Source of the DNA: Jeotgalibacillus malaysiensis
GTDB lineage: Bacteria; Bacillota; Bacilli; Bacillales; Jeotgalibacillaceae
Length of the DNA stretch: 64,000 nucleotides
Assembly: GCA_000818095.1 (NCBI GenBank)
Contig: CP009416.1
Coordinates: forward strand, 259,501 to 323,500
Reading direction: 5' to 3'
Below the pieces are notes generated by a model. It searched no databases and was not told the origin of the DNA. It was given only the letters and a program-made list of their open reading frames with translations. The position numbers and the translations under genes are program-made. Positions 3,018 through 53,469 of the stretch are shown one piece after another; positions within the stretch are counted from its first letter, which is position 1; every line of letters starts with the position of its first letter.

Positions 3018-4025
3018 TCAAAGCCCCACCATATCCACCGCATTAGTAGCATCCTCGACACTGAACCCCTCAAATATTAACTGATCAATCAGACCGGACC
3101 TTGAAAAAGAGGTGAAATCAAGGTAACTCTCAGCTGATTTTACTGCCTGTTCACTCCAGTCAACGCTGATGTTTTCAACTGCATAAGTCGCATCCTCTGT
3201 ACTAAAGCCTTCAAATTCAAGCTGATCAATTAACCCACTCTTTGAAAAAGCGGTATAATCCAAATAACTTTCAGCAGATTTAACCGCCTGCTCTGTCCAG
3301 TTAACGCTGATATTTTCAACTGCAAAAGTGGCGTCTTCAGTGCTGAATCCTTCAAACTCAAGCTGATCAACGAGTCCGCTTTTCGAAAATGCGGTAAAGC
3401 TCAGATAGCTTTCGGCTGTTTGTACGGCTTGCTGCTGAGACATTGTGCCGGCAGCTGCTTCGGCTTCTTCAGCGGCCAGCCTCTCAGCTTCTTCTTCAGC
3501 CTCAGCCTCTTCGGCAGCTATTCTTTCAGCCTCTTCTTCGGCTTCCCGTTCAGCTTCCTCAGCAGCCAGTCGCTCTGATTCTTCTTCGGCTTCACGTTCC
3601 GCTTCCTCAGCGGCCAGTCTTTCAGCTTCCTCTTCAGCCTCGCGCTCTGCTTCTTCAGCCGCTAACTTCTCCGCTTCCTCTTCGGCTTCCTGTTCTTCCT
3701 CTTCAGCCACAACCCTTTCCGCTTCTTCCTCTGCTTCGCGCTCAGCTTCCTCCTCAGCCAGACGTTCAGCCTCTTCTTCCTCCGCCTGTGCAGCGGCCGC
3801 ATCCGCTTCAGCTTCCTCAACGCCTGCGATATCCTGCTCTGCCGGCTCCGCTGTGACACCTATCATAATAAAGAATGTGACCATTGAAGCCCCGAAGTAC
3901 ATCATCACTCTTTTCCTGCTTCTCTTACCTTCAGGCACCCACCTTAATACAAAATCAGGCTTAACCAATCCCACAAAAAGTGCAAATGCCGCTACGACAA
4001 AAAGCAATAAAAAAAAGACCGCCAT
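3018..4025 (-). CDS. Membrane-anchored protein with Ala/Glu coiled coil and three Ltp-type repeats
   Basis: 335 residues. Two N-terminal hydrophobic segments (about residues 3-22 and 41-58) are followed by roughly 130 residues built almost only from A, E, R and L in an EEAERLAAEEAE-type pattern, a long charged helix. Three tandem C-terminal repeats of 47 residues each carry the AESYL..FSKSGLIDQLEFEGFS signature of the Ltp (host cell surface-exposed lipoprotein) family. Streptococcal prophage Ltp lipoproteins block phage DNA injection; Ltp-type repeats are also widespread in chromosomal proteins of unknown role. The ATG at 4025 follows an AAAGGAGG site; the upstream in-frame ATG at 4079 does not. 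There is no lipobox, so anchoring is by membrane helices. The gene is convergent with the cluster before it. Confidence 0.75.
   Translation of the reverse strand: MAVFFLLLFVVAAFALFVGLVKPDFVLRWVPEGKRSRKRVMMYFGASMVTFFIMIGVTAEPAEQDIAGVEEAEADAAAAQAEEEEAERLAEEEAEREAEEEAERVVAEEEEQEAEEEAEKLAAEEAEREAEEEAERLAAEEAEREAEEESERLAAEEAEREAEEEAERIAAEEAEAEEEAERLAAEEAEAAAGTMSQQQAVQTAESYLSFTAFSKSGLVDQLEFEGFSTEDATFAVENISVNWTEQAVKSAESYLDYTAFSKSGLIDQLEFEGFSTEDATYAVENISVDWSEQAVKSAESYLDFTSFSRSGLIDQLIFEGFSVEDATNAVDMVGL
3021..3437 (-). repeat. Three tandem 141-bp coding repeats (Ltp repeats)
   Basis: Three successive units at 3297-3437, 3156-3296 and 3021-3155 encode near-identical 45-47 residue blocks. The first two differ at few positions; the third is most diverged (LIFEGFSVEDATNAV) and is shorter at its end. 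Clean unit length suggests expansion by recombination within the gene. Confidence 0.85.
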
Positions 4026-4348
4026 ATGAAATCCTCCTTTGATGTGTAATGAGATCACTTCGCTTTGAAGCTCATGCACTGATCATAAAGCTGAACGTGA
4101 CAGCTAAGAGAATATTCATTTGGTGATCCTGATTTTACCCGCTGCTATGTAACTATATTAACTGAATATTTAGATTTATTTACAGTATAATAAGATAAGT
4201 CTTTGAACACAAGTAAATTATAGATATTACCATAAGTAAAATTCATTTGAATTGTTAAACTTGAGAGGTATGAGAAGAATAAGGAATCTTCCTTCGCTTT
4301 TATAAAGTATCAAACAGGGTACGTGGATAAAAAAGGGAGTTTTTTAGT
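4026..4348. other. Intergenic region between divergent genes
   Basis: About 320 AT-rich bases separate the minus-strand Ltp-repeat gene from the plus-strand lipoprotein gene. I see the Ltp gene's AAAGGAGG site at its left edge and AAAAGGGAG at its right edge, but no convincing promoter pair, hairpin or small gene. Confidence 0.4.
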
Positions 4349-38535: not shown

Positions 38536-38660
38536 GGAATCAGGGGTGATGGAATTACATTCACAGGTGACGGAATTAACTTGTTAGCTGAAGGGATTCT
38601 GTGTCTGAATGAATAAAATGAGCACTGCCGGACAGCTGCTGAAGGAATTAATTTCGATTT
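38536..38660. repeat. 21-bp periodic array, GGAATT class (left part, cut by IS)
   Basis: Cores TGATGGAATTA, TGACGGAATTA and TGAAGGGATT start exactly 21 bases apart (GGAAT at 38551, 38572; GGGAT at 38593), with an earlier copy at 38536 and a later one at 38644. The ~11 bases between cores are not conserved. It continues at 40206 beyond the IS. Confidence 0.75.
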
Positions 38661-38747
38661 CTTTCTAGCCCCCTTAATACCTTGGACACGAATTGATGTT
38701 GGATTTACACTGATATCAAACGACTCCACAGGAAAGGGGGCACTTTT

Positions 38748-39059
38748 ATGCGAAAGAAGGTTCAGGCTTTTGAAGAGATCAAAAAGAAATATGTCCGAAT
38801 GGCACTCGAGACCAACAAGATCGTCACAACTGCCAAGACAGCAGGCGTTCATCGTAGTACTTTGACTGCTTGGATGAATGAGTATGGAGATGAAGTCCGA
38901 GAAGAGATGGAGGCGGAGGTGGAATCAGGGGAAGTTCTTCCTCTTGAAAAATCGGGTGACTATTACAAGCAGCAGTACGAACGAGCGATGCGTCTGCTTG
39001 GTGAGAAAGAGTTGGAAATCGCGGTCTTAAAAGACCTTGTAAAAAAAAGACCTTACTAA
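38748..39059 (+). CDS. IS3-family transposase OrfA
   Basis: 103 residues: an N-terminal helix-turn-helix (KIVTTAKTAGVHRSTLTAWMNE) and a C-terminal leucine-zipper-like helix (RAMRLLGEKELEIAVLKDLVKK). An A8 run followed by G at 39041-39049 near its end is a likely -1 slippery site that would fuse it to OrfB. AAAGGGGG is the ribosome site. Confidence 0.85.
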   Translation: MRKKVQAFEEIKKKYVRMALETNKIVTTAKTAGVHRSTLTAWMNEYGDEVREEMEAEVESGEVLPLEKSGDYYKQQYERAMRLLGEKELEIAVLKDLVKKRPY

Positions 39060-39067
39060 TATCAGAA

Positions 39068-40012
39068 ATGCATGAGATCGCAAAACAATGGATCGACCAA
39101 GGCTTCCAGGCTAAGAGAGTTCTTTCAATACTCGGACTTGGCCGCTCGACCTACTACTATCAATTGATGATGGGAGGGAACATCCAGATGAAGAAGAGAG
39201 GACGACCCTTTCCAGGGGTCTCATACACTTTAGATGGCACGCCAGTCTCTGATGAAGAGATTAAAGAGTTTCTCTGTGAGTTCAGCGAAGACGATTTGAT
39301 CGGAGGTCTAGGCTATCGAAAGTGGGGTATCCTCTTGAGGACAGAGAGGAAGTTAGTGATCAATGCCAAAAAAGTCTATCGACTTTGTAAGGAGCTCGGC
39401 GTATTAAAAAAACGAAGTAAGACCAACCGTCCTAAGCGCCAACTCGCGAGAAACCGGAGCGTGACAGCCGTTAACCAACTTTGGCAGATGGACATCAAAT
39501 ATGTCCCCTTAAAAGAAGCTGGGTTCTTTCTGATGACGTGTAACGTTATCGATGTCTACGACCGACAGATCGTCGGGTATTATTGCGGAAGGACCTGCAG
39601 GTCTGAAGACGTAATGCGGACGGTGATGAAAGCCATCTTACGACGCAAGGTGCATCTGAAGCCAGGGAGTGGTGAGCAGAAACTGATCATCCGTACAGAC
39701 AATGGACCACAGTTTATCAGTCACAGTTTTGCGAAATATTGCGCGTTTCATGGTCTTTACCATGAGCGTATACCGAATGCATCTCCCAACCTGAATGCCT
39801 TTATCGAGTCATATCACAGCCAGTTACAACGTGAGTGTATAGTTCGTCACGAGGTTGAGCTGGTGACGTTCGATCATGCGATATACTATATCAACGACTA
39901 TGTGAAATTTTACAACGAACGCAGACCGCACGGCAGCCTTGGCAATCTGTCACCGAAGAAATTCTTCGAAGCAGTTAAAAACAATTGTACTGCCTTCTCA
40001 ATCAATCTCTAG
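39068..40012 (+). CDS. IS3-family transposase OrfB (DDE integrase core)
   Basis: 314 residues. HTH_21-type GGLGYRKWGILLR region, then an rve catalytic core with WQMDIKYV (first D), IIRTDNGPQFIS (second D) and NAFIESYHSQLQRE (E). It lies in the -1 frame relative to OrfA. That frame is open through the A8 run, so a 400-residue OrfAB fusion is expected by programmed frameshifting. Confidence 0.9.
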   Translation: MHEIAKQWIDQGFQAKRVLSILGLGRSTYYYQLMMGGNIQMKKRGRPFPGVSYTLDGTPVSDEEIKEFLCEFSEDDLIGGLGYRKWGILLRTERKLVINAKKVYRLCKELGVLKKRSKTNRPKRQLARNRSVTAVNQLWQMDIKYVPLKEAGFFLMTCNVIDVYDRQIVGYYCGRTCRSEDVMRTVMKAILRRKVHLKPGSGEQKLIIRTDNGPQFISHSFAKYCAFHGLYHERIPNASPNLNAFIESYHSQLQRECIVRHEVELVTFDHAIYYINDYVKFYNERRPHGSLGNLSPKKFFEAVKNNCTAFSINL

Positions 40013-40205
40013 GAGATGATTGTATCTGGTCAAGCGATGATAATGGCTGATCACTGTGAGGTCAGCCTTAAAAAACCTTCTCTGATCACCTAAGTACGAA
40101 GACAAGGCCGTTGAAGCCTTAGTACCAAGTTTTATCATCAGTTTGGAATGTGCTAAAATTCTTTCAACAACAAAACAAATCGTGTCCAACATTAGGGGGC
40201 CGAAC

Positions 40206-40300
40206 CGATTTTGAGCGAATCATTTCAGGATTGAAGGAATCAACAGGCAATCTGAAGGAATAACTTTCAAATTGATGGAATTCCAACAGCGTTCCAAAGC
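40206..40300. repeat. 21-bp periodic array, GGAATT class (right part)
   Basis: Units TGAGCGAATC, TGAAGGAATC, TGAAGGAATA and TGATGGAATT start 20-21 bases apart (cores at 40216, 40236, 40257, 40277). Right-hand continuation of the array at 38536, separated by the IS. Confidence 0.75.
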
Positions 40301-48686: not shown

Positions 48687-49565
48687 TTATCTCTCTAACA
48701 ATATCTTCTCCCAGTTTTCCGGAAAACCAAGTTGTTTGAGATGGATATACTCTGAATACTCTTCTAACAGAGTAGATAGGGATATTTGAAAGTTTGTGTG
48801 ATTTTCAGGATGTAATAATCGGCTTAGAACATAAATTGCAGCAAAGATATCACTGTTTCTTATAAAACTTCTTTTGGATTTGAATAAGGTCGGTTTAATT
48901 GTAAGTATTTTACCGTACAACCTGCCGTAATGTGCACAAACGTTCCTTACATACGCGAGTGAATGCAGCCAGCTTGTCACATAATAATGAGGTACGTTAA
49001 AGTCTTTAACAACCTCAGATTTAGTGTCTTCTTTTAGGTTTCTAAATAATTTCGACAGTACCCCGAATGAAACCACTTCAATAGCTACCCAGAAAGGAAA
49101 TTCTCCACCGTATTTAGATTTATGATGTAAGACAAAAAGTTCTTTCCCTGATTTGGAAATTTGTTTATCAAGCTCTTTAATGAAATTTTCATGAGAGGTT
49201 TTAGAACTGAAATTGTTTGAATCGAGGTATCCCAGAGCGCCAAACTCATGGGCATGATGATAAGCGATTTTAGAGCGGAACTCTATTTCAATAAGTTCCA
49301 AATGATTCATTAATAGATCCCGGAGCTTCTGATCGAAGTTGTATAGCATTTTCATATGATGAAAAGTTGTGCCATTTTGAAATAAATTTTTATTTTCTTT
49401 CTGCCTAAGAGTAAGTCCATATGCTGAAAATCTGTAATAATTTACTCTTTTCAAAAAAGATAAAGCTTCTTCCGAGTCATTAATAATCAGGTTTCGTTCT
49501 TTTAATATATTAATTTGTTGCTCGTATGTTTTAGGTTTTTTAATGTTTTTTTCAGAAGGATCCAC
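48687..49565 (-). CDS. Abi_2 (AbiD/AbiF-like) family protein with HEPN motif
   Basis: 292 residues. N-terminal KPKTYEQQINILKERNLII and LKRVNYYRFSAYGL, then MLYNFDQKLRDLLMNHLELIEIEFRSKIAYH, are the Abi_2 pattern. RNVCAHYGRLYG carries the R-x4-H HEPN ribonuclease motif. Relatives include lactococcal AbiD/AbiF abortive infection proteins, though function of most chromosomal copies is untested. GTG 49565 follows GGGGGAGG. Higher Asn/Lys/Ile content and AT-richness than its neighbours suggest transfer. Confidence 0.85.
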   Translation of the reverse strand: MDPSEKNIKKPKTYEQQINILKERNLIINDSEEALSFLKRVNYYRFSAYGLTLRQKENKNLFQNGTTFHHMKMLYNFDQKLRDLLMNHLELIEIEFRSKIAYHHAHEFGALGYLDSNNFSSKTSHENFIKELDKQISKSGKELFVLHHKSKYGGEFPFWVAIEVVSFGVLSKLFRNLKEDTKSEVVKDFNVPHYYVTSWLHSLAYVRNVCAHYGRLYGKILTIKPTLFKSKRSFIRNSDIFAAIYVLSRLLHPENHTNFQISLSTLLEEYSEYIHLKQLGFPENWEKILLER

Positions 49566-49697
49566 TTTAATCCTCCCCCACAATATAAAAAATGACCCAC
49601 CTTGGTCCGCATTGTTAAGAGGCGTGGTGGGTTCTGTTAACTGTATTATATCAATACAAACAATTACTGTAAATAGGCTGGAGATGACCGTTTACTA

Positions 49698-50702
49698 TTA
49701 TTTAATCTCACTAACCTTCACAACAGCCTTACCAAGATTCTTTCCTTCAAACAATTCAAGAAAAGCATCAATCGTATGATCAAAACCTTCTGTAATAGTC
49801 TCCTCATACTTCAGCTTTCCTTCACTAAGCCAGCCTGCAAGTGCTTCTGCGCCTTCTTTGAAGCGTGAAGAATAGTTACCGACTGTGAAGCCCTGCATAA
49901 GCGAGCTTGTCTTGATCAGGTAGCCCTGAACACGTGGTCCCATGTCGCGTTCTGCCTTGTTATAGCCTGAGATGGCCCCACAAACCGGGATTCGGGCAAA
50001 GTTGTTTAGCAGTGGCAGTACAGCATCGCCGATTTCACCACCGACATTTTCAAAGTATACGTCAATGCCATCAGGACAGTTTTCCTTCAATGCTTTATAG
50101 ACGTTTTCAGTCTTATAATTAATCGCCGCATCAAAGCCAAGTTCATCTTTCAGGTAACTGACCTTTTCATCAGACCCTGCGATTCCAACAACACGTGCGC
50201 CTTTAAGCTTAGCGATTTGTCCCACGACAGAACCAACCGCGCCGGCAGCGCCTGATACAACAACTGTTTCGCCTTCTTTTGGCTTACCGATATCAAGCAG
50301 TCCGAAGTATGCAGTCAGGCCGGTCATGCCAAGCACGCTCAAGTAAGCAGATGCAGGTGCCTGGTTGTGATCAACTTTACGGATTTCATTTTCTTTTACA
50401 ACAGAATACTCCTGCCAGCCGAGTGATCCGATCACAACGTCGCCTTTTGAAAAGCGGTCTGATTTCGATTCTTCAACCTGGCCAATAACAGCACTTGAAA
50501 GTACTTCATCTAACTTAAATGGTTCAATATATGATTTACCTTCGTTCATTCTGCCGCGAAGGTATGGGTCAACTGAAATGTAGACTGTGCGGATCAGGAC
50601 TTCACCCTGTTCAGGTGAACCAATCGGCGCTTCTACAAACTTGAAATCGTCATGTGTCGGTGTACCTTTCGGGCGGTTAACTAAATGAATTGTCTTTTGC
50701 AT
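49698..50702 (-). CDS. NADP-dependent MDR-family oxidoreductase (YfmJ/CurA-like)
   Basis: 334 residues. A zinc-independent MDR enzyme: SVDPYLRGRM near the N-terminus, the dinucleotide loop SGAAGAVGSVVGQIAKLKG (about 155-173), and YFENVGGEIGDAVLPLLN. These reduce activated double bonds of enals or prostaglandin-like substrates. B. subtilis YfmJ is a close type. Start ATG 50702 with TGGAGGG upstream. Confidence 0.85.
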   Translation of the reverse strand: MQKTIHLVNRPKGTPTHDDFKFVEAPIGSPEQGEVLIRTVYISVDPYLRGRMNEGKSYIEPFKLDEVLSSAVIGQVEESKSDRFSKGDVVIGSLGWQEYSVVKENEIRKVDHNQAPASAYLSVLGMTGLTAYFGLLDIGKPKEGETVVVSGAAGAVGSVVGQIAKLKGARVVGIAGSDEKVSYLKDELGFDAAINYKTENVYKALKENCPDGIDVYFENVGGEIGDAVLPLLNNFARIPVCGAISGYNKAERDMGPRVQGYLIKTSSLMQGFTVGNYSSRFKEGAEALAGWLSEGKLKYEETITEGFDHTIDAFLELFEGKNLGKAVVKVSEIK

Positions 50703-50834
50703 CGTCTAATCCCTCCAATAAATGTCTATGTACAATACCCATATTTTAACGTGGATGAACATTTGATGACAATGATTTGCTTGTGAAGGCCGGTCTGGAT
50801 ATGCAGATAAAGTGTTAGCATGCTTTTCTTTCAA

Positions 50835-51010
50835 TCCTGCGAAAAATTCCTTCACTGGAAAATTGATTGTTTCAATCTGAAAATAATTCCCTCAAAATCG
50901 AAATCAATTCCTTCATTTGATTTGAAATTACCTTATTTGCATCATTTCACCCAATTATTCCTTAGGCAACTGAGTCAATTCCATCAGAATCCAAGGGTTT
51001 TCCATCATAA
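50835..51010 (-). repeat. 21-bp periodic array, GGAATT class (minus strand)
   Basis: Read on the minus strand: TGATGGAAAA, TGATGGAATTG, TAAGGAATAA, TGAAGGAATTG, TGAGGGAATTA, TGAAACAATC, TGAAGGAATTT at intervals of mostly 20-22 (one 29). Cores on the plus strand are the AATTCC boxes at 50845, 50885, 50906, 50953-50961 and 50977. Same core as the array interrupted by the IS. Confidence 0.75.
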
Positions 51011-51180
51011 CCAAAACCCGGATGTCTGGTATCACACATATGATTAATTAAGTGGGAACAGTTTAATTCGAAAAATTTTGATAAATATAGCATTCCGTAA
51101 GTTTTTTGGATATCATAACCATATGAAGATTTTTGTGTTAATAAGTTTTCAGCGTTTATGTAAATAGCTCGGACATACTC
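51011..51180. other. Intergenic region, no gene seen
   Basis: AT-rich stretch between the periodic array and the small lipoprotein gene. No hairpin, start site with ribosome site or array unit is evident. Confidence 0.4.
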
Positions 51181-51312
51181 TTAATCTTCATCATCATTTT
51201 CAATCACTTCAAACAAAATTGAATCATCCTGTTCTTCATCCACTTGATTAATTTCAAATGAGCAGCCGGCAAGCATCATCGCAGTCAATGTGAATAGCAT
51301 AAACTTTTTCAA
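51181..51312 (-). CDS. 43-residue lipoprotein
   Basis: TTG 51312 preceded by GGAGGTGA at 4 bases. Encodes MKKFMLFTLTAMMLAGCSFE and an acidic tail ending NDDED. LAGC is a good lipobox with Cys at residue 17. Too short for standard gene calling. A single mature tail of ~26 residues suggests a small exported factor or a remnant. It lies upstream of the divergent oligopeptidase B gene. Confidence 0.6.
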   Translation of the reverse strand: MKKFMLFTLTAMMLAGCSFEINQVDEEQDDSILFEVIENDDED

Positions 51313-51350
51313 TCGTGTCACCTCCGGGTTAGTAGACTTAATACACATAC

Positions 51351-51389
51351 GTTTCTAATTTACAAAAGTTTCTAATTTACAAAAGTTTC
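51351..51389 (+). repeat. 17-bp tandem repeat, 2.3 copies
   Basis: GTTTCTAATTTACAAAA occurs twice in succession (51351-51367, 51368-51384) plus GTTTC. It sits in the presumed promoter region of the oligopeptidase gene. Confidence 0.85.
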
Positions 51390-51426
51390 AAGTTGGAAAA
51401 TATAGTTTAAGTGAGGAGAATTTTAA

Positions 51427-53469
51427 ATGAAAGCACCAATCGCAAAGCGCGTACCTTTTACGCACAATATACATAATGATATTCGTGAAGATGACTATTA
51501 CTGGATGAAGGATAAGACGAACCCTGAAGTGGTTTCGTATCTGGAAAGTGAGAATGAATATTTCAGTGAAGTAATGAAGCCGCTTCAAGAGAAGACGAAT
51601 GAGATTTTTGAAGGGATGGTTGCACGCGTACCTGAGGCGGAAGAGAAGGTGCCTGTTCAAAATGGACCTTATTTTTATTATTCACGGGAGCAAAAGGACA
51701 AGCAATATGCGATTTATGCGCGTAAAAAAGCTGAGAGCCGTGAGCTTCTGGATCAGGCTGAAGAGGAAATCATTCTGGATTTAAATGAGCTGGCAGGGGA
51801 TGACGATTATCTGAGTGTCACGCTGCAGCGTCTGAATGAAGAGCAGACAAGGCTTGCGTACCTTGATAATCGTGATGGGTCAGACCGTTATACGATTTAT
51901 ATTAAGGACCTGGAAACGGGAGAGTTACTCTCTGACAAAGTAGAAAACGTATATATTTTCGGGAGCATGGAGTGGAGCCAGTGCGGAAAATATATTTTTT
52001 ATGTAACGGTTGATGATATGCAGCGGCCTTACCGACTGTGGCGTCATGAGGTTGGCAGTAATGAAGCGGATGAGCTTTTATATGAAGAAAAGGAAGTCAC
52101 TTTTGCGTTATTCATTGCGAAAACGAAAAGTGGAAAGTACATTACTGTGCATTCAAGTTCAACGATGACAGAAGAAGTCCGTCTCGTGGATGCGGAAAAT
52201 CCACTTGCGCCGGTTCAGCTGGTAGACGAGCGTCGCAGAGGGATTAAGTATGACGTGGATCACTGGGGAGATGACCTGCTGATTCTGACGAATGAAGACG
52301 CACTGAATTTCAAACTGCTGCGCTGTCCGGTATCGGATTTCTCGCAGCGGACGGAAGTTGTTCCTTATGATGAGAACCGTTACCTTCAGGCTGTTTATCC
52401 AACACAGGACAAGCTTTTCGTATTTGGACGTGAACATGGACTGACACAGCTTTGGGTGCTTGAACATAATGAGCTGCAGCAGCTTGAGTGGGATGAGCCG
52501 CTTTATACGCTATCGATTGTTAGTGGACAAAGCTATGATTCAAGTGAGCTTTTAGTGGATTATGAATCATTATTAACACCTGATACGACTTATCGTATTG
52601 AGGTTGCAACTGGTGAAAAGCAGGCGATTCACACAGCAGCTGTTAATGGCGAATATGATCCGGAGTTGTTCAATCAGCATCAGCTCTGGGTGACTGCAAG
52701 AGATGGCGTTAAGGTGCCATTAATGGTCATCTATAAAAAGGGTGCACTTGATAACGGACCGGCACCGCTGATTCTGACTGGTTATGGCTCTTACGGGGCT
52801 GACAGCAATCCATATTTTAATGCATACCGACTGCCGCTTTTAGAAAAAGGAGTTGTGTTTGTAACGGCTCAGGTGCGCGGTGGCGGCGAGATGGGCAGAC
52901 ACTGGTATGAAGACGGTAAAACACACCGCAAGCTTAATTCATTTACAGACTTTGTTGATGCAGCACGCTTCTTAATTGAAGAAGGCTACACAACAGCTGA
53001 CAAAATGGCTGCAAGGGGCGGCAGTGCTGGAGGATTACTTGTTGGTGGTGTGTCTAACATGGCAGGGGATCTATTCAAAGTGATTGTACCTGAAGTGCCA
53101 TTTGTCGATGTACTGACTACTATGCTTGATGACACGATTCCATTAACTACATTGGAGTGGGATGAGTGGGGCAATCCGCAGAATGAAGAGGACTACTCGT
53201 ATATGAAATCCTATAGCCCGTATGACAATGTGGAAGAAAAGGAATATCCGCATATGTACATCACAACTGGTCTGAACGATCCGCGCGTTGCTTACTGGGA
53301 GCCGGCTAAGTGGGTAGCGAGACTGCGTACAAAGAAGACAGATGACAATACACTTGTGCTGAAAACCAATATGGGAGCGGGGCACTTTGGTGCGTCAGGA
53401 CGCTTTGATCATTTGAAGGAAGCGGCAGAGTGCTATGCGTTTATTTTAGATAAGATTGGCGTGGAGTAA
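51427..53469 (+). CDS. ptrB: Oligopeptidase B (S9A family)
   Basis: 680 residues. An N-terminal beta-propeller domain (to about 410) precedes an alpha/beta-hydrolase domain. The triad can be placed: Ser533 in GGSAGG, Asp618 in NDPRV, His653 in GAGH. Cleaves after basic residues in short peptides in the cytoplasm. Single long intact gene, AGTGAGGAG ribosome site before ATG. Confidence 0.9.
   Translation: MKAPIAKRVPFTHNIHNDIREDDYYWMKDKTNPEVVSYLESENEYFSEVMKPLQEKTNEIFEGMVARVPEAEEKVPVQNGPYFYYSREQKDKQYAIYARKKAESRELLDQAEEEIILDLNELAGDDDYLSVTLQRLNEEQTRLAYLDNRDGSDRYTIYIKDLETGELLSDKVENVYIFGSMEWSQCGKYIFYVTVDDMQRPYRLWRHEVGSNEADELLYEEKEVTFALFIAKTKSGKYITVHSSSTMTEEVRLVDAENPLAPVQLVDERRRGIKYDVDHWGDDLLILTNEDALNFKLLRCPVSDFSQRTEVVPYDENRYLQAVYPTQDKLFVFGREHGLTQLWVLEHNELQQLEWDEPLYTLSIVSGQSYDSSELLVDYESLLTPDTTYRIEVATGEKQAIHTAAVNGEYDPELFNQHQLWVTARDGVKVPLMVIYKKGALDNGPAPLILTGYGSYGADSNPYFNAYRLPLLEKGVVFVTAQVRGGGEMGRHWYEDGKTHRKLNSFTDFVDAARFLIEEGYTTADKMAARGGSAGGLLVGGVSNMAGDLFKVIVPEVPFVDVLTTMLDDTIPLTTLEWDEWGNPQNEEDYSYMKSYSPYDNVEEKEYPHMYITTGLNDPRVAYWEPAKWVARLRTKKTDDNTLVLKTNMGAGHFGASGRFDHLKEAAECYAFILDKIGVE

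Follow-up and report, generated by a model that had tools for sequence, protein, structure and literature searches.

The window, by which we mean the whole 64,000-nucleotide stretch of Jeotgalibacillus malaysiensis DNA that was analysed, carries a repeat array on the minus strand at 50825-51007. On one side the array adjoins a zinc-type dehydrogenase gene (49698-50702, minus strand) at its 5' end; its other neighbour is a small ORF at about 51181-51348 (minus strand), a lipoprotein by eye, beyond which lies a prolyl-oligopeptidase gene (51427-53469, plus strand). A scan of 50650-51450 gave promoter-like sites at chance level (4 vs 3.9 expected). Its single terminator-like site, where 0.3 would be expected, lies outside the element at 51433-51450. 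The peptidase gene is immediately preceded by a 17-bp perfect tandem repeat of 2.3 copies (51351-51389). The window also holds an Abi_2 gene (PF07751, 179.9 bits) at 48687-49631 on the minus strand, with an abiF RNA match (RF03085, 39.6 bits, gathering 37) just upstream at about 49595-49631, likely a phage-defence gene with its RNA, as well as 141-bp and 48-bp tandem repeats at 3101-3779, within an ORF at 3018-4079 (minus strand).

Anatomy of a dispersed element

The sequence-only reading of the locus had described a minus-strand array in which about eight units recur every 20-22 bp, apart from a single gap of 29 bp. This was confirmed, and alignment gives nine boxes, starting at 51007, 50986, 50965, 50944, 50915, 50894, 50874, 50854, and 50833 on the minus strand, with steps of 21, 21, 21, 29, 21, 20, 20, and 21 bp. 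Eight of the nine match TGANNNAAW; the third, CTAAGGAAT, is counted as a box solely through alignment with other copies. The core first proposed, TGAWGGAATT, is an idealization: three boxes match it exactly and one more, TGAGGGAATT, matches with one mismatch. Allowing at most one mismatch, this core occurs 36 times in the window compared with 18.9 in 100 shuffles (sd 4.25, largest 33), none of which reached 36. In a periodicity scan of the window, the interval of this array ranked first at period 20, and at period 21 the best scores fell in or near ORFs, with this interval lower.

Rather than standing alone as a tandem array, these boxes make up one copy of a dispersed element about 184 bp long. 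The layout, which we call type A, consists of nine boxes TGAnnnAAT (here mostly TGAWGGAAT) at steps of 21, 21, 21, 29-30, and then about 21 bp. A genome pattern search returned 12 matches, seven of which are arrays of the type A class with one layout including the long step. A profile made from sequence only, from six aligned arrays (R1), was searched against the genome and recovered its six training copies and 17 further full-length copies at E 3e-11 or better; a second profile (R2), built from all 23 full-length copies, found 26 type A copies, namely the same 23 and three that are split by an insertion sequence. The copy at 50825-51007 scores 86.6 bits with R2 over model positions 1-184, and a leave-one-out profile of the 22 other copies in the genome recovers 51007-50826 with 82.8 bits (E 6.3e-25). 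The 29-bp gap is a fixed trait of the element, for the long unit from box 4 to box 5 (50916-50944, minus strand) has a counterpart of 29-30 bp in every other aligned copy. When the step length was allowed to vary, type A scored 58.7 at 29 bp, 57.7 at 30 bp, and 39.8 at 21 bp; the null maximum of 44.7 is due to real copies inside the null set, which includes stretches that carry them.

At E <= 0.01, R2 gave 45 rows, every one of them on the 3.5-Mb contig; the 603-kb contig had none, and by its share of size the chance that 0 of 26 copies would fall there is 0.016. The megaplasmid pJeoMA of J. malaysiensis D5 is given as 603,070 bp (PMC5027565). The copies sit between genes predicted with a home-made dicodon gene caller, which also called spurious low-scoring ORFs over several arrays. 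By the same caller, the context of the 23 unsplit copies is convergent in 10 cases, tandem in 9, divergent in 1, and unresolved in 3, compared with 11 convergent, 23 tandem, and 5 divergent among 39 gaps of at least 200 bp, which may be a lean toward gene 3' ends. Contig 1 starts with dnaA (by eye), and type A copies lie nearer the origin than a uniform distribution (26 copies, KS p 1.3e-4; 18 after collapsing clusters within 30 kb, p 0.029). Two copies stand just after 5S rRNA and two further ones have similar downstream sequence (by eye); Rfam matches on six loci were to rRNA and abiF RNA only.

The element has no consensus RNA fold. RNAalifold on the 23 copies gave 0 pairs, a consensus fold of 6 copies gave one weak helix, and the single folds of the copy at 50825-51007 were ordinary (z -0.71 and 0.32). 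Over the 23 copies, the box strand folds with a mean of -33.5 kcal/mol against -30.3 (sd 5.1) for shuffled sequence, and the complement strand folds weakly (mean -23.2 kcal/mol). In five genomes, the box strand of type A copies is G-rich over about 80 bp before the element and C-rich over about 80 bp after it; in the genome of J. malaysiensis, the last 20 bp of the 5' flank hold 0.41 G and 0.12 C, and the 3' flank 0.36 C and 0.15 G. A closing stem formed by these flanks was considered and rejected, as matched 70-bp flanks had no pairing advantage over mismatched ones in any of five genomes (permutation p 0.12, 0.19, 0.66, 0.99, and 0.10). Box spacing is close to whole helical turns: the type A consensus is best phased at 10.4 bp (resultant 0.98), and the copy at 50825-51007 at 10.2 bp (0.94), with a poor fit at 10.5 bp (0.46).

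Relatives with other cores and in other genomes

Weak R2 matches led to arrays with other cores, type B (AAAGGTGATnGAAT) and type C (GGTGAwyCAATTA), which have seven boxes at steps of 21, 21, 30, 21, 21, and 21 bp and thus keep the step of about 30 bp (loci L077, L078, L101, L107-L113, and L115-L118). With the step left free, 14 such copies, 13 of them from J. malaysiensis, scored best at 30 bp (44.0 vs 28.7 at 21 bp). In several copies one box reads TGATAGATATAA or TGATACATAAA. A profile built from 13 B/C arrays (R3, E <= 1e-6) gave 29 rows in the genome: 22 at >=38.8 bits, of which 12 were in the training set, 5 partial, and 2 cross-hits to type A. Elsewhere in the genus it gave 22 rows in G001, 43 in G004, 12 in G006, and 17 in G011, type A cross-hits included, and none at E <= 1e-6 in the other seven genus genomes. 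Several B/C arrays stand close together in G004 (C1:721-735 kb and C8:6.8-7.3 kb), with distances of about 300 bp between some of them. The origin bias of B/C copies had a p of 0.037 for 14 copies and 0.14 after collapsing to 11. At E <= 1e-6, type A is present in seven of the 12 genus genomes, and five of the 12 have neither type A nor B/C; the array system is therefore dispensable.

The array class seems to reach beyond the genus. Across the order, 17 of 299 genomes gave R2 matches, and 7 of the 17 belong to the genus. Among the ten others inspected by eye, several have 21-bp arrays of other letters (TGACGCAAT, TGATGGAAT, TGAAGGGATT) and some are ambiguous; the match in G121 resembles coding sequence. 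Runs of three exact TGANNNAAT boxes spaced 21 bp apart were found in 32 of 397 genomes, compared with 11 for the reversed control, and some of the 32, such as G025, resemble coding repeats or minisatellites. A triple-box pattern search of named genomes returned 6 contigs, one from the Bacillales (J. alimentarius) and five from metagenome-assembled genomes. Among the titles listed in literature searches, none pointed to an account of such arrays.

Insertion targets and constraint between sister species

A second type A copy in the window is split by an insertion sequence. Its left part with boxes 1-5 lies at 38547-38660 (plus strand; R2 44.4 bits, model positions 1-113) and its right part with boxes 6-9 at 40208-40281 (plus strand; R2 44.9 bits, model positions 108-184), and the last four bases of the former and the first four of the latter are the target duplication ATTT. 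The 1547-bp insertion between them (38661-40207, plus strand) encodes orfA (38748-39059) and orfB (39068-40012). The orfB product matches NF033516 transpos_IS3 with 195 bits (cut-off 160) and has an rve domain, and orfA alone reaches 25.7 bits, below that cut-off. On its sequence, the insertion is assigned to the IS3 family. Target duplications in this family are 3-5 bp long, and a 4-bp duplication accompanies all four copies in the genome. These four copies are 100% identical, and each interrupts an array, three of type A and one of type B. The duplicated bases are GGAT, ATTT, ATCT, and AAGC, always directly before a box TGA, with the insertion oriented one way relative to the array in three copies and the other way in one. 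The arrays make up no more than about 0.23% of the genome (9,357 bp), a share that is slightly too high because all 29 R3 rows are counted, including two cross-hits to type A and five partial rows; the chance that all four insertions would fall in arrays is therefore about 3e-11. Part of this preference may be for the box as such, since the motif TGANNNAAT occurs 99 times in the window and 14 of these are within arrays. One split copy is intact in G004, where the flanks align through once the insertion is omitted. In G002, a relative of the insertion with a 94% identical protein (G002:C1:691853-692794 plus flanks) lies, by eye, within a phased array whose core is of a fourth type, about GAAACGATACAWA (by eye); no target duplication could be made out around it. 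Two distant relatives (46-47% identity) showed no array by eye.

The split copy also explains a similarity that had first been read as copying between two arrays or as selection on the variable half of the unit. The unit next to the insertion at 38.6 kb (38640-38660, plus strand) does nearly equal one of the array under study (50915-50895, minus strand), with 20 of 21 bases shared. Judged from the alignment, this similarity is positional homology. Both arrays are copies of one dispersed element and both units occupy slot 5, which in each copy directly follows the step of about 30 bp, so copying between the arrays is not needed, and we found no sign of a special exchange between them. For the suggestion of selection on the variable half the answer is split, with a degree of slot-specific conservation found in the 3' half of the element. 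When the core was masked and slot labels were permuted over 19 of the 23 copies (four near-duplicate or gapped copies were dropped), same-slot agreement was 0.383 compared with 0.333 (sd 0.004), a value that 0 of 1000 permutations reached. The excess, however, lies in slots 5-8 (0.40-0.47), with slots 1-3 at 0.30-0.32.

Comparison with sister species separates the boxes from the rest of the element. In 15 orthologous pairs between J. malaysiensis and G004, a set that omits eight copies without an orthologue in the G004 stretches compared (the copy at 50825-51007 included), two rRNA-linked copies, and one split copy, 156 of 1204 box positions had changed (13.0%), as had 425 of 1543 positions in variable halves (27.5%; Fisher p 3.6e-21) and 1127 of 6890 in flanks of up to 250 bp that are partly coding (16.4%). 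Boxes thus change about half as often as their own variable halves and only slightly less than flanks. Gap positions amounted to 0.4% in boxes, 1.7% in variable halves, and 3.6% in flanks, so spacing is firmer than flanks. Within the box, T had changed at 7 of 133 sites, G at 4 of 134, A at 0 of 135, and the second A at 4 of 135, whereas the three middle letters had changed at 18-28% of sites. Eight pairs between G009 and G002 gave 33 of 648 changed in boxes and 102 of 848 in variable halves (odds 0.39, p 2.7e-6), with 471 of 3834 in flanks and 0 gap positions in the elements against 78 in the flanks; the box register is imperfect in several of these pairs, so the effect should come out weaker. 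In G006 the copy at 50825-51007 lacks a counterpart, and the syntenic place is taken by a small ORF; that locus is without the array, yet it differs by other sequence too. G004 gave no match to the neighbour genes of this copy. In the stretches compared, no clean empty site was seen.

Likenesses, competing explanations and a possible binding platform

Among known systems, the closest distribution is that of REP/BIME sequences. The IS3-family elements IS1397, ISKpn1, and ISPsy8 are described as targeting these sequences, with five of five ISPsy8 copies in REPs (PMC1525189). Like REP/BIME, type A is extragenic, dispersed between genes in many copies (26 on contig 1), patchy by species, and the target of an IS3-family element (here four of four), a trait that is common, though not universal, in REP/BIME. 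However, REPs are short palindromes, whereas type A is about 184 bp of direct, non-palindromic, evenly spaced boxes in which 23 copies gave 0 consensus pairs. Plasmid centromere and iteron arrays (parC, tubC, parS) consist of several direct-repeat boxes near whole helical turns. Type A shares direct boxes near whole turns with them, and its copies are denser toward the origin, but about 26 copies are spread over one chromosome, none was found on the megaplasmid, and no partition gene was noticed next to the copies examined. In CRISPR arrays, unique spacers separate nearly identical repeats about 25-40 bp long, and cas genes accompany them. Type A likewise alternates between conserved and variable stretches, but its boxes are degenerate, 9 bp long at about 21 bp, and constant in number, the copies are many and dispersed, and the variable parts are common to orthologous copies. 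The constant boxes and fixed step also set type A apart from VNTRs, in which alike units vary in copy number. MITEs and REPINs are short, dispersed, and non-coding, as type A is, but type A has no terminal inverted repeats (70-bp flanks outside the boxes, five genomes), and in the stretches compared neither a target duplication of its own nor a clean empty site was found.

One rival explanation is that the arrays are a selfish, non-autonomous mobile repeat of the MITE or REPIN kind, spread in the past by a box-recognizing transposase, with old copies whose boxes have not yet decayed. The many dispersed copies, the patchy presence in the genus (7/12), the type-specific cores, and local clusters of copies in G004 and J. 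malaysiensis are all consistent with it. However, the copies keep their places between sister species (15 and 8 pairs), which argues against recent mobility, and in two species pairs the boxes are constrained below the variable halves, unlike old dead copies. The absence of terminal inverted repeats and of specific pairing between flanks, together with our finding no copy that one genome carries and another plainly lacks, also speaks against a mobile repeat, which we consider unlikely. In the single inverted copy pair examined, there was no transposase gene between the copies. The genes there (C1:2873.9-2875.8 kb) were tried as an autonomous partner and rejected, being a NERD-domain protein and one without a Pfam match that looks membrane-bound by eye. 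L106:6063-7571 (C1:2874.1-2875.6 kb) holds this NERD-domain gene and likely membrane-protein gene, both with low coding scores, and the pair of inverted type A copies around them is also present in G004.

Alternatively, the array could act as RNA at gene ends, where an unstructured strand would offer repeated sites to a protein such as Rho or the GGA-binding CsrA. The weakly folding complement is richer in C than in G, as Rho would prefer, the resolved copies tend toward gene 3' ends (of 20, 10 convergent, 9 tandem, and 1 divergent), and many boxes contain GGA. Nevertheless, GGA is the drifting part of the box and is not the same in B/C, the tandem copies are split between the two orientations relative to transcription (5 and 4), and an RNA would need neither near-whole-turn spacing nor a low indel rate, which makes this role improbable. 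That the arrays exist only as target sites created or maintained by successive IS elements would account for all four insertions in J. malaysiensis, and by eye one relative in G002, lying in arrays. But an insertion splits arrays and does not build them, the IS protein is found at stringent E in 2 of the 12 genus genomes whereas type A arrays are found in 7, and G004, without a match to the insertion, shares copies and holds one of the split copies intact. We regard this explanation as highly improbable. An ordinary decaying minisatellite, a local tandem repeat, is barely credible; the tandem look and the two-unit repeat that Tandem Repeats Finder gives at 50874-50915 fit it, but it is already contradicted by the fixed architecture, that is, the same box number and long step in dispersed copies, and also by units whose closest likeness, beyond that under permutation, is to units in the same slot elsewhere, and by the few indels between species.

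The reading that we favor, and hold to be slightly more likely than not, is that the arrays are dispersed chromosomal protein-binding platforms for a putative binder, with a REP-like distribution. DNA recognition is consistent with box intervals close to whole turns of the helix, conserved box ends, the scarcity of indels, and the lack of a fold, and the same architecture recurs in the 23 unsplit copies. Anatomy, copy number, constraint on boxes and spacing, positions shared by sister species, and targeting by the IS were observed; protein binding, the identity of a binder, and a cellular role are inferred. With nine boxes at intervals of about two helical turns and a single wider interval of about three, a DNA-binding protein could line up its molecules along roughly one side of the helix, four in one group and five in the other. 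Such platforms would lie between genes and be inherited with their neighbors, with box ends and spacing probably kept by purifying selection. The middle letters of the box, which differ by type and lineage, may reflect a set of related binders, or a single binder evolving along with its sites, and the IS3-family element would land in such platforms, inserting directly before a box. Against this reading, the box middle drifts, so recognition would rest on few bases. The small difference between boxes and flanks in rate of change, the five genus genomes without either family, the poor fit of the copy at 50825-51007 to 10.5 bp, and the missing array at the syntenic place in G006 also count against it.

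As for the role of such platforms, chromosome organization or insulation at gene ends would be our guess. A broader version, which we hold to be rather doubtful, is a chromosome-organizing system of the Bacillales, with dozens of evenly phased TGAnnnAAT platforms per genome, leaning to the origin and not found on the megaplasmid, a family of putative binders whose specificity for the middle letters of the box would turn over by lineage along with the sites, and a platform-specific IS. If the arrays are bound, they would be a Gram-positive counterpart of REP/BIME with a readable grammar of a box, a two-turn step, and one three-turn step. The constraint, the box letters that differ by type and lineage, and an IS that reads arrays would then bring the binder within reach of pull-down and of a comparison of gene content across the genus. 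The IS itself would show how, in nature, a transposon can target intergenic DNA through recognition of a dispersed repeat.
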